Below, piece by piece: positions 51,222-55,566 of a stretch of DNA of 64,000 nt (position 1 is the stretch's first letter; each line of letters starts with the position of its first letter). The translations under genes were made by a program, and so were the position numbers. The DNA comes from Tigriopus japonicus (taxonomy: Eukaryota; Arthropoda; Copepoda; Harpacticoida; Harpacticidae), in assembly GCA_010645155.1 (NCBI GenBank), contig JAAGOF010000250.1, forward strand, positions 422,747 to 486,746. Direction: 5' to 3'. The notes under the pieces were generated by a model. That model was not told the origin of the DNA, did no database searches, and saw only the letters and a program-made list of their open reading frames with translations.

Positions 51222-51325
51222 AAGCTGTAGCGGATCGATGTCCGCCAACATTGGTGACCCCGACGTGATTGGCCGAGGTCAACCTTGAACTGGCCGAGCT
51301 CATCAGACCCGAATCGATCCCACTA

Positions 51326-51960
51326 CTACTTGAAGCGGGCAACATGGGTTGAGAGATCTTTAGCTCGGCGATTGAGACAAACTCTAACCGTGGCCACCAA
51401 AGCGATCACCAAAGTGGACGTTAGGAGGCCCAGAAGTACGCAAAAAATGTAGTTCTTGTAACGAGGCGGGTCCATCACAGCCTTGGAAATGAGCGACACG
51501 AGATCATCCCCGAGTTCGTCGAGACCTTCTTCAAACCATAGGATGGGGACGACCGTGACCTTGATTCTACTGATTTCATCAAATGTGCTCAAGGCTTTGA
51601 TTGCAAAATTGATTTGGATTCGAGCCTTGGCGGCCAAGGTCGTCCCAGTCGTGGGCTGAACATCGAAATATAATTGATGCTTGTCCTTCCGCGGGTTCAA
51701 TCCTTCAACTGCATTCGAGAAGCTCTGATTAGCCCCCATGAAGTGAGGCCAAGACAAAACAATAGGCGCATCAAATTGGCACTTGGAAATGGCGAACATG
51801 CCGTCTCCGATCATGTCGCACAAAACTGGGTCGGTACAGAAGCATTCGTTGGCCGGATACGAGGCTGGGGTCATGAACACATCCTTTCGTGGCACGAATC
51901 TGAAGCCTTCAATAGTCTTGGAATGGACTGGCTGTAGGTCATTGGCCAATTTTTTAGGCT
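51326..51960 (-). CDS. CD36 / scavenger receptor class B family, C-terminal fragment
   Basis: About 210 codons without a stop or frameshift encode the distal ectodomain and C-terminus of a CD36/SCARB protein, a lipid and lipoprotein receptor at the cell surface or lysosome. Landmarks in order: TIEGFRFVPRKDVF, the Cys-rich block NECFCTDPVLCDMIGDGMFA then ISKCQF, LSWPHFMGAN, EGLNPRKDKHQLYFDVQPTT, VVPILWFEEGLDEL, and a C-terminal membrane segment (YIFCVLLGLLTSTLVIALVA) followed by a short basic tail. A full receptor is roughly 450-550 residues with an N-terminal membrane segment; that half is absent from the window. The frame continues into the minisatellite. A possible splice acceptor (CTACAG) lies near 51938. 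Gene remnant, captured fragment or 3' exon cannot be separated from sequence alone. Confidence 0.85.
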
Positions 51961-52705
51961 TTCCTTCTACGGCCACGACCTCGCCATCGGCGTAACCGGC
52001 CCCATTCATTGCCTCAACCTCGCCATCGGCGTAACTGGCCCCATTCATTGCCTCAACCTCGCCATCGGCGTAACCGGCCCCATTCATTGCCTCAACCTCG
52101 CCATCGGCGTAACCGGCCCCATTCATTGCCTCAACCTCGCCATCGGCGTAACCGGCCCCATTCATTGCCTCAACCTCGCCATCGGCGTAACCGGCCCCAT
52201 TCATTGCCTCAACCTCGCCATCGGCGTAACCGGCCCCATTCATTGCCTCAACCTCGCCATCGGCGTAACCGGCCCCATTCATTGCCTCAACCTCGCCATC
52301 GGCGTAACCGGCCCCATTCATTGCCTCAACCTCGCCATCGGCGTAACCGGCCCCATTCATTGCCTCAACCTCGCCATCGGCGTAACCGGCCCCATTCATT
52401 GCCTCAACCTCGCCATCGGCGTAACCGGCCCCATTCATTGCCTCAACCTCGCCATCGGCGTAACCGGCCCCATTCATTGCCTCAACCTCGCCATCGGCGT
52501 AACCGGCCCCATTCATTGCCTCAACCTCGCCATTGGCGTAACCGGCCCCATTCATTGCCTCAACCTCGCCATCGACGTAACCGGCTATCCTTCTACGGCC
52601 ACGACCTCGCCATCGGCGTAACCGGCTCCCCATTCATTGCCTCAACCTCGCCATCGGTGTAAACGGCTCCCCATTCATTGCCTCGACCTCGCCATCAGCG
52701 TAACC
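51961..52705. repeat. 39-bp coding-frame minisatellite beside the CD36 fragment
   Basis: About 18 tandem units; roughly 15 central ones are nearly identical at exactly 39 bp. On the minus strand one unit reads GYADGEVEAMNGA. Three units at the high-coordinate end are 2 bp longer or carry a replaced block. One of them (about 52585-52610) repeats CCTTCTACGGCCACGACCTC, which otherwise occurs only at the CD36 edge (about 51963). The unit lacks stops in several frames, so the long frames on both strands are not by themselves evidence of translation. Confidence 0.95.
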
Positions 52706-52870
52706 GACCTCTTCCATAGCCCATCTGGCATGGAACCACCTACCTCCTCTTTCTCCCAACTCTTCGTCTATTCTTTGCCGTAGTCGGAAGCTCGGGGGAG
52801 CTGTGGCGACACTGTCTTCCGTGACCGGTTTCTCCCTTCCTCCTACTCTGCTCTCTTCTGTCCTTCATAT
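52706..52870 (-). other. Open frame leading into the minisatellite
   Basis: On the minus strand, about 50 codons (including PPSFRLRQRIDEELG and FHARWAMEEV) run without a stop directly into the first GYADGEVEAMNG unit in the unit's coding frame. After the first 2-bp-longer unit this frame meets TGA. Origin unknown. Confidence 0.35.
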
Positions 52871-52871
52871 A

Positions 52872-53600
52872 TACCGGGTGCGGTAATTGATCTCGGACGC
52901 TTTAGAAAGTTAACTTTAAAGAGATTTAATACAGAAATAAGAGGCGTGGCAAAAAAAAATTAATAACAAAAAAGGTTGAGCATAATTATCATAATTATTT
53001 TTCAAAAACTCCCCCATTTTTGTCAATGCAGCCTTGTAGGCGGGGACGGAAGGCGCGCATGGCGTTGACGAGGTTGGCCTCGGACATGGCGGCCCACTCC
53101 CGGTTGACGCTGGTCTTCAGGGCTTCAATATTGGGATGGATGATGTTGCAGGCCCTCTCCTCAACATGCGTCCACACGTGGTAGTCTTAGGGGTTCAGGT
53201 TGGGGCTGAATGGCGGCCAGAAATTCTTCAGCCAGAATCCCCTAGACCCCAATTTATTCTCACTGTCCGCCTCCTACCGCCTCCATGACGCTTTGTGAAG
53301 CCACCAGACTCTTCATGTAACTTTTTAATGTTATAAACGGTGCTTCTTGCCACTCCAAAGTTTCGTGAAATGGTGGTGGGCGTGTCACCGGCCTCAATCC
53401 GCGCAAAGATTTTTTGCCGTAATTCTGTCATGTAATGTTGTTTTATTTCGGTCACTTTAAACTGCACAACACAAGCGCATATAAAGAAAGTGCTTGATTG
53501 TCGCAACTTCCCCAAAAAGTGGGATTTAAAATAAAAATGCTTTTATCATATGTAAAAACTCAGTTTTTTAAGTGTCCGAGATCAAACTCCACACCTGGTA
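52872..53600 (-). mobile_element. Internally deleted mariner element, nested
   Basis: The element proper is 52874-53598 (725 bp) between TA dinucleotides. Inverted ends start CCGGGTGCGG and CCAGGTGTGG and share TTGATCTCGGAC. It holds both ends of a mariner transposase gene on the minus strand but has lost the catalytic middle. It lies inside the inverted-repeat-bounded CD36 segment, so it came later. Confidence 0.9.
52995..53515 (-). pseudogene. Mariner transposase, catalytic core deleted
   Basis: The N-terminal piece (minus, starting upstream at about 53430) reads MTELRQKIFARIEAGDTPTT then ISRNFGVARSTVYNIKKLH, a helix-turn-helix, and GGGRRRT. It jumps to FWPPFSPNLNP-stop-DYHVW and the C-terminal THVEERACNIIHPNIEALK. 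The DYHVW context carries the third Asp typical of mariner-type DDD enzymes; the segment with the first two Asp is missing, and an in-frame stop replaces the residue before DY. Confidence 0.88.
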
Positions 53601-53846
53601 TATATTTCTTTCCCGCCAGCAAATCAGTCATCTACCATCTCTCGACTCGTCATGTTGGCGGACATCGATCCGCTACAAAGCTGTCATTAATATGACGTCG
53701 TTTTAAAAGCCTGAAAACGTTTAAGTGACTCAAAAAGAGTGGAAGTCAATTGATGAAGTATACTTCAAGCATGCGTCTCTAAACACAAAACATATGACCA
53801 AAAATTGTGTACCAATCACAACTCAAAAACTTGGAGCAAACAAATG

Positions 53847-54796: not shown

Positions 54797-55566
54797 GTAA
54801 AACAAAGTCTCCTTTTTTATAATCAAGCGAGTTTTCAATAGTTTTTTTCAAAGGCGTAGGAGGTGTGGTTTGTTTGGGGGGGCAACACCAAATTTGCCCG
54901 AATTTCACAATTTATTTGCGATTAATTATTGTCTGGTTCTTCAGTATTTTACGATTAATCTTGTTATTTAATATCATTTTTCCCCTCCCCGAATGCCCGA
55001 ATATCTCAACTCATTTGCCCGAATTTTAGCAGTCTCCGGAGGCCAGGGGGGGCAGTTGCCCCCCCTGCCCCCCTGCCTCCTACGCCTATGGTTTTTTTTG
55101 TCCTTTTTTCTCATAGCAAACCCGCGGTTGCGAGTGGTTCACTTACTACAAGGACACGAAGCTATGCGCCTCGCTATCCGTGTGTCTGCGACTCGATAAG
55201 ACCATTTGTGGCGACAATTGCGTGAGTGGTGAAAACGAATGTCCCGAGTTTTACTGTGGCGTCAAAGGCAAGTGCTTGGGAGCATTGGAAGGTATGCGAA
55301 TGGTGCAGAGCGAGTCCGAATGTAAAGACAAATGCGATGAAGAAGCCCGGTGTAAATGGCACTCATTTGACCGGTCCACCAAGGTTTGCTCCATGACCGC
55401 CGATTGTCCAGCTTTGGATGCGAAATGCGAGAACTGCATCGCCTCTGAGCGAGCTTGTGAGCTCGGACAAGTATCTGTGCCCCGAAATAACACATTGAAG
55501 GCCACTCCTCAAAATGAAGAACCTAGCAAATACACTAAAACATCGAAATATGGTAGTAAGGGTTAA
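54563..55566 (+). CDS. Secreted protein with two PAN/apple-like cysteine modules (2 exons, 227 aa)
   Basis: Exons 54563-54796 and 55117-55566 join in phase 0 at CLHQCQ/QTRGCEW. The start has A at -3 and gives a signal-peptide-like N-terminus (VWPLVILFSLSGMF, residues about 12-25). Two modules of about 70 residues follow the same cysteine plan: C50-C56-C73-C77-C83-C95-C101-C109-C113-C120 and C125-C131-C147-C151-C157-C169-C175-C182-C185-C192. Each has a CEWFTYY or CKWHSFD core and an ending of the form C-x2/3-C-(V/I)-x-S-E. This fits PAN/apple-type domains, which bind proteins or carbohydrates outside the cell; the ligand is unknown. A Lys/Ser/Thr-rich tail ends the protein. A donor-like GTATCT near 55470 could allow a longer spliced form. 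Confidence 0.85.
54852..55087. mobile_element. MITE filling most of the intron (54797-55116)
   Basis: AGGCGTAGGAGG at the left is mirrored by CCTCCTACGCCT at the right, followed inwards by G-rich and C-rich runs. The interior has two TTTGCCCGAATTT blocks and a GGGGGGCAGTTGCCCCCC hairpin near 55050. No clear target duplication. It makes up 236 of the 320 intron bases. Confidence 0.7.
55117..55566 (+). CDS. Cysteine-rich secreted protein, exon 2
   Basis: Acceptor TTTTTTCTCATAG/CAA. 149 codons complete module 1 and encode all of module 2 and the tail, ending TAA. Confidence 0.88.
   Translation, partial: QTRGCEWFTYYKDTKLCASLSVCLRLDKTICGDNCVSGENECPEFYCGVKGKCLGALEGMRMVQSESECKDKCDEEARCKWHSFDRSTKVCSMTADCPALDAKCENCIASERACELGQVSVPRNNTLKATPQNEEPSKYTKTSKYGSKG

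Follow-up and report, generated by a model that had tools for sequence, protein, structure and literature searches.

A host CD36 fragment inside a TRIM-like LTR retrotransposon of Tigriopus japonicus, and its probable uptake through a tRNA-copied DNA end

A window of the Tigriopus japonicus genome (64,000 nucleotides of contig JAAGOF010000250.1, assembly GCA_010645155.1) holds an inserted unit that is probably one integrated reverse-transcription product of a TRIM-like element that took up a piece of host CD36 mRNA by way of a tRNA-copied end. The vehicle is a short, coding-free and non-autonomous TRIM-like LTR retrotransposon primed by tRNA-Trp, and we regard the capture of the CD36 fragment by such an element as close to certain. 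The anomaly of the unit is its left end, where the mechanistic signal sits. The features of the unit, in window coordinates, are as follows.

51222-51225, no strand: left copy of the target-site duplication AAGC, read directly.
51226-51250, minus strand: inverted copy of the 25-bp U5 end of the LTR (minus-strand U5 DNA sequence), the exact reverse complement of 53653-53677.
51251, plus strand: single T between U5 and the primer-binding sequence, also T in most listed relatives and C in two to three.
51252-51269, plus strand: TGGTGACCCCGACGTGAT, exact complement of the last 18 nt of tRNA-Trp(CCA) including CCA (tRNA genes L094, L095, L099, L114 and L115).
51270-51946, minus strand: captured CD36 fragment, antisense to the element; parent at about C2:4907561-4908325, one exon (97% DNA identity, alignment, Pfam CD36).
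51326-52633, minus strand: chimeric open frame of 435 codons that passes without a frame change from the 39-bp repeats into the C-terminal half of CD36.
51947-51956, no strand: 10-bp filler at the second junction, absent at that place from the parent CD36 gene and from the C5 relative.
51957-52801, plus strand: internal domain of the LTR element, ending in a polypurine tract (about 52788-52801); its 39-bp array found by TRF, with the repeat type and the polypurine tract also in relatives.
52802-53677, plus strand: 3′ LTR (TGTGGCGACACTG...CCGCTACA), split by a mariner-like insert, with homology to both C5 LTRs and to solo LTRs.
52874-53598, no strand: mariner-like insert of about 725 bp in the 3′ LTR, with TA at 52872-52873 and 53599-53600 and a remnant transposase helix-turn-helix.
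53653-53677, plus strand: U5 end of the 3′ LTR, right arm of the inverted repeat.
53678-53681, no strand: right copy of the target-site duplication AAGC, read directly.

The preliminary description had taken 51226-53677 as one inserted unit bounded by perfect 26-bp inverted repeats with AAGC outside each. The repeats (51226-51251 and 53652-53677) are indeed complementary at 26 of 26 positions, AAGC is read directly on both sides, and the structure fits a single insertion with a target-site duplication. Of these base pairs, 25 belong to the U5 end of the LTR; the remaining one agrees by chance. A genome search with the repeat, suggested earlier, also recovered it outside the unit: the 25-mer TGTAGCGGATCGATGTCCGCCAACA has nine places at two or fewer mismatches in the 194.9-Mb genome, three of them exact, two of the exact ones being the arms of the unit and the other seven of the nine places being LTR ends. 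The inverted repeats are real and perfect, but they are not the normal ends of the family, whose members have direct LTRs that mostly start with TGTGGCG. Direct LTR pairs with TG...CA ends are present in the relatives on C5, C1 and C58 (the C58 5′ LTR being rearranged); the window copy has its 3′ LTR and, in the position of the 5′ LTR, only the 25-bp inverted U5. Having one LTR, it gives no age from an LTR pair. Target-site duplications are short and of constant length, at 4 bp in the window copy and around seven of eight other family copies checked (the end of the eighth could not be placed); that of the C58 copy is, on reading, ACCT. No empty allele of the AAGC insertion site was seen.

Perfect terminal inverted repeats with a target-site duplication could also mark a Pack-type DNA transposon with 26-bp terminal inverted repeats that captured the fragment. 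The repeat, however, is a U5 end, and the family it belongs to combines direct LTRs with a PBS-like site and a polypurine tract; a pattern search of the genome found an inverted U5 end next to a primer-binding site (PBS) once at two or fewer mismatches, in the window unit, with two more matches at three mismatches. A DNA transposon with terminal inverted repeats, Pack-TIR elements included, was rejected because the inverted repeats are not the family's own ends and the relatives end in direct LTRs; we give this origin almost no credence.

The family itself is best seen in its clearest relative, the 713-bp copy at C5:9368627-9369339, which has two LTRs of about 147 bp that differ at 2 bases, a PBS-like TTGGTGACCC, a polypurine tract, a 4-bp target duplication and, internally, a tandem repeat of the type found in the window array. 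At less than 1 kb and with no coding domain, as judged by eye, it has the format of a TRIM; the window copy exceeds 1 kb owing to its repeats, the CD36 piece and the mariner-like insert. A DNA search of the genome with the C5 copy gave at least 73 matches, which are pieces and not copies and form a lower bound with 40 of 66 first-look candidates scored; the family has dozens of matches in the genome, solo LTRs among them. The earlier hint of an LTR-class vehicle, taken from TTGGTGACCCCGACG, is thus borne out, since this is primer-binding-site sequence for tRNA-Trp and an LTR family was found. In the window, the polypurine tract AAGCTCGGGGGAGC precedes TGTGGCG, as the same or a similar tract does in relatives, and the 5′ part of the 3′ LTR is identical at 73 of 73 bases to a solo LTR at C3:3327419. 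The internal domain holds a 39-bp tandem array at 51978-52706 (18.5 copies, TRF), a 21-mer of which has 17 matches at two or fewer mismatches in a genome search, all in the window copy. The nested mariner described earlier is present as a mariner-like insert, with its bounds now set to 52874-53598 and TA on each side.

Two other family copies deserve mention. The leader of a subfamily copy (C12:11811150-11812123, L043) resembles by eye the start of gag (MTENQENAVKLPTFCAAT), which hints at an autonomous parent. The copy at C4:3930365-3932104 (L054, L062; target-site duplication GTGT) has an apparent antisense piece of a Gypsy-type integrase, recognised by eye, that separates its 5′ LTR from the internal region, and is possibly a second antisense capture.

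The cargo is a stretch of CD36 (Pfam PF01130, E = 8e-51, profile positions 286-461 of 463) that matches C2:4907551-4908325 in two pieces at 97% DNA identity. The C2 locus encodes a CD36 protein that matches residues 7-605 of P0001, a full-length relative of 635 amino acids, in five blocks; it is an intron-containing parental gene of several exons, such as the preliminary description had proposed to look for elsewhere in the genome. By eye, a 69-bp GT-AG intron lies just upstream of the captured stretch, which itself sits inside one exon. The absence of introns from the fragment is therefore uninformative as to an RNA origin of the piece. With both the LTR family and this multi-exon parent in hand, the earlier proposal that a mobile element captured a host gene fragment has held up. 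P0001 matches the window only from residue 326 on, and a protein search with it (E up to 1) found no N-terminal CD36 exon in the 64 kb, in agreement with the earlier view that the N-terminal half is missing from the unit; upstream CD36 exons, named at the time as what would speak against a captured fragment, were likewise not found in the window, and the other such outcome named, a repeat confined to the unit, did not come about either. A genuine 3′ CD36 exon flanked by coincidental element ends, the alternative offered earlier, or else an assembly artefact, would accord with the frame being open over the fragment. Against this, the 64 kb contain no other CD36 exon that we could find, the fragment is about 97% identical to one C2 exon and the structure fits a single insertion with a target-site duplication; the genuine exon was not borne out, and the two possibilities together appear very improbable.

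There are 12 CD36-like matches in the genome, of which the window fragment is the only one on C25, and a DNA search of the genome that skipped very common words and scored the best candidates found no second copy of the LTR-CD36 chimera. The closest CD36 protein to the fragment is 'Tk08744' in eukprot (71% identity), presumably, from its name, of Tigriopus kingsejongensis. Two near-equal CD36-like loci with stop codons, C1:2535795 and C39:13610 (L020, L021), have 62-63% protein identity to the window fragment and are possibly one duplicated pseudogene or a haplotype duplicate.

Relative to the parent, the fragment has one 83-bp and one 4-bp deletion. The 83-bp gap was considered as a spliced intron, and so as proof of an RNA intermediate, and rejected: it lacks GT-AG borders and the stretch is coding in the parent, hence it is a deletion. 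It shifts the frame after the membrane segment, so that the earlier claim of about 210 intact, intron-free codons of a CD36/SCARB C-terminal half stands for the presence of C-terminal CD36, over about 207 codons, and fails for the C-terminus, which is frame-shifted. These codons form part of the 435-codon frame, the remainder of which is mostly the 39-bp tandem array, the array making up the N-terminal half; the array unit keeps the frame by its length of 13 codons, and the chimeric frame is probably incidental. An extended receptor, with CD36 running into the tandem array, was rejected, the array being the internal domain of the element. Fragment and parent differ by four synonymous and six non-synonymous changes over 576 aligned bases, in which there is no sign of selection, and no sign of a function of the captured piece was found. 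Downstream of the unit, a cysteine-rich open frame of 149 codons lies at 55117-55566 of the window.

The left end carries the evidence on the route of capture. Window positions 51226-51269 correspond, base for base, to the reverse complement of the U5 of the 3′ LTR, a T and the 18-nt complement of tRNA-Trp. Five tRNA-Trp(CCA) genes (ARAGORN; in 3 of 12 loci and 2 of 5 loci) end in TTCAAATCACGTCGGGGTCA, L115 having TTCGAAT..., and the PBS adjoining the left LTR end matches tRNA-Trp at 18 of 18 nt. TGGTGACCCCGACGTGAT stops at A59, one base short of A58, which we take, numbering from the T loop, to be the next base of the tRNA. Among 15 PBS sites of relatives, not all independent, 14 match the tRNA over an unbroken 7-13 nt and the fifteenth has its match interrupted at base 3; total identity is 9-14 of 18. 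Because the relatives match over only 7-13 unbroken nucleotides, the 18 nt of the window copy look to have been copied from the tRNA itself in the round that made this copy. Other LTR elements in the genome carry TGG plus 15 nt natively (26 of the 35 loci listed), and since perfect 18-nt primer-binding sites are thus common here, the window copy might instead descend from an ancestor with a native one. In HIV-1, plus-strand strong-stop DNA is described as ending after 18 nt owing to m1A58, and the same source states that tRNA-Trp is among the primer tRNAs that carry this modification (PMC13191261). For Ty3, the PBS is reportedly not perpetuated through tRNA copying (PMC5371799), so that such copying would not be the rule in this superfamily.

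The U5 at this end is nearly self-complementary, so its 3′ end could fold back. As single-stranded DNA, the 25-nt U5 strand forms a hairpin that pairs its two terminal bases with each other (-5.3 kcal/mol, z -2.7, a value equalled by 4 of 200 shuffles). In 14 of 18 LTR ends (12 of 15 distinct 27-mers), the U5 strand is more stably folded than about 95% of 300 shuffles; the other 4 ends (3 distinct) fold no better than shuffles at the 5% level, and the hairpin pairs the very first base in 4 of 18 ends (3 distinct sequences), that of the window included. The hairpin may serve the family in another function. In relatives a poly(A) signal, AATAAA, stands shortly before the 25 bp, but the window has AGCAAA at that place; such a signal, together with the GT-richness at the start of the 25 bp, would be in keeping with a U5 of 25 bp. 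That the U5 strand ended exactly at 25 nt and folded back we infer from the sequence, and we give the fold-back even odds.

At the other end of the 18 nt, the last bases (CCGACGTGAT) resemble the parent gene (CCGACTGTGAC) just upstream of the CD36 junction. By a simple score applied to one locus, this microhomology is matched at 15 of 7,983 locus positions, the junction counted, and at 3 of 1,300 nearby. GTGA being common to both sequences, the exact junction rests on the 18th base (T, with C in the parent). The CD36 sequence is antisense and runs from its C-terminal side inward, as expected for priming on mRNA. A parent gene elsewhere in the genome (C2) and microhomology at the switch are both features of LTR-mediated retroposition, and mis-priming from a tRNA-copied end is, in our judgement, likely.

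The proposed sequence of events has five steps. Minus-strand DNA would start on tRNA-Trp and copy the 25-nt U5; the 3′ end of U5 would then fold back beside the tRNA, be extended over its last 18 nt and halt at A58, a product whose predicted sequence is exactly that in the window. The freed 3′ end, equivalent to a plus-strand strong-stop end, would pair over about nine bases with CD36 mRNA and be extended, which would leave CD36 antisense with the orientation and junction read in the window. Synthesis would next shift to the element's own minus-strand cDNA and run to the end of the 3′ LTR, and integrase would insert the linear product with a 4-bp duplication; that both of its termini were of U5 type is shown by the ends of the unit. 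Repeat expansion, small deletions and the mariner-like insertion would be later events. Alternatively, while making the minus strand, reverse transcriptase may have switched near the PBS from element RNA to an antisense transcript of CD36, the odd left end forming separately. Jumps guided by microsimilarity between packaged RNAs are a published model of LTR-mediated retrocopying (PMC5408686), but this course of events requires antisense CD36 RNA and leaves unexplained both the inverted U5 and a junction at exactly 18 nt of tRNA complement; we consider it distinctly doubtful.

Sequence joined to a copy of tRNA-Trp also occurs elsewhere in the genome. In the family copy at C58:158288-159204 (L103), which sits within sequence that resembles, by eye, a Gypsy-type pol gene, the 5′ LTR holds the 3′ end of tRNA-Trp with an 8-nt internal duplication; this tRNA copy ends after base 18, the same base as in the window, and is joined to antisense LTR R sequence. 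The same LTR also holds a U5 foldback and a second R-U5. A pattern search for the C58 junction returned only C58 at zero mismatches and, at three, C2:11334119 and C9:2546550, the latter also with a duplicated PBS. This similar 18-nt junction at a second locus counts against a quite different history of the window unit, in which a normal TRIM inserted first and later double-strand-break repair or gene conversion swapped its 5′ LTR for a CD36 patch from C2 and inverted the terminal 25 bp. A DNA donor is possible, given that the captured stretch does not extend beyond a single exon, and the short deletions and 10-bp filler resemble end-joining scars. Yet repair would have to yield separately an exact flip of U5 at the edge of the target-site duplication, an 18-nt tRNA complement absent from the relatives examined, and a junction at base 18; we hold it to be unlikely.

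Longer tRNA copies follow LTR-like ends at C2:9387769, C3:3335176 and C73:159792 (L008, L105, L120), with CCA plus 49, 43 and 50 nt of tRNA-Trp, respectively; at the C2 locus the tRNA piece runs into sequence that reads by eye as Gypsy integrase, and the elements of the C3 and C73 insertions are known from 131 bases each. Opposite position 58, two of the three insertions have C where all five tRNA genes found have T; such a C amounts to an apparent A-to-G change in the tRNA. A difference at base 30 in the C3 and C73 insertions corresponds to the gene variant L099. The position-58 cases number only two, and C2 and C73 are possibly alike by common descent. Misincorporation at m1A is documented, with a C signal described as low where the 3′ neighbour is A, as here (PMC4787781). 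We tentatively raise a general form of the idea, as a minority possibility: LTR elements here may have a recurrent side-route in which tRNA-Trp-copied 3′ ends, stopping at or reading through m1A58, prime on other RNAs and capture host mRNA antisense, can be capped by a snapped-back U5 and are integrated as DNA with two U5 ends, so that the insertions would record tRNA modification.

As a kind, LTR-mediated gene capture is already known; the route here is unusually legible. TRIMs are defined as elements under 1000 bp with 100-250-bp repeats, and a bivalve element has been called the fourth animal case (PMC6934838). The present family resembles them in its LTRs of about 147 bp, PBS-like site, polypurine tract, sub-kilobase non-coding C5 copy and solo LTRs, and differs in its 4-bp target duplications and internal tandem repeats; the window copy differs further in the host gene fragment it carries and in a left end that is not an LTR. 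LTR-mediated retroposition by abnormal template switching likewise joins host RNA to an LTR element via microhomology and inserts the product with a target-site duplication (PMC5408686, PMC1950507, PMC13317346), but in the window CD36 is antisense and starts directly after the 18-nt tRNA-copied end, and an inverted U5 stands in place of the left LTR. Among plant TRIMs, an Arabidopsis element carries a P450-like gene fragment; that case is described as 3′ transduction (PMC13317346), whereas the window capture is antisense and at the PBS side. Early minus-strand strong-stop DNA of HIV-1 can also prime on itself via a stem-loop, one that depends on the TAR hairpin in R (PMC4668388), whereas here a U5 hairpin is proposed and the extension copies tRNA. 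In the titles and abstract openings covered, with subscription literature mostly absent from them, we found no description of integrated LTR elements with tRNA read-through or inverted-U5 ends.

The window unit lays out, base by base, one way in which host gene sequence can enter a retroelement, and it singles out the tRNA-copied end as a primer prone to error. If this is true, genomes can be mined for tRNA-copied junctions to learn how frequently host genes are captured by this route. Such mining could also tell, for a given animal, if its primer tRNA bears m1A58, and if tRNA copying takes place at all in Gypsy-type elements; for Ty3 it is reportedly not the rule.
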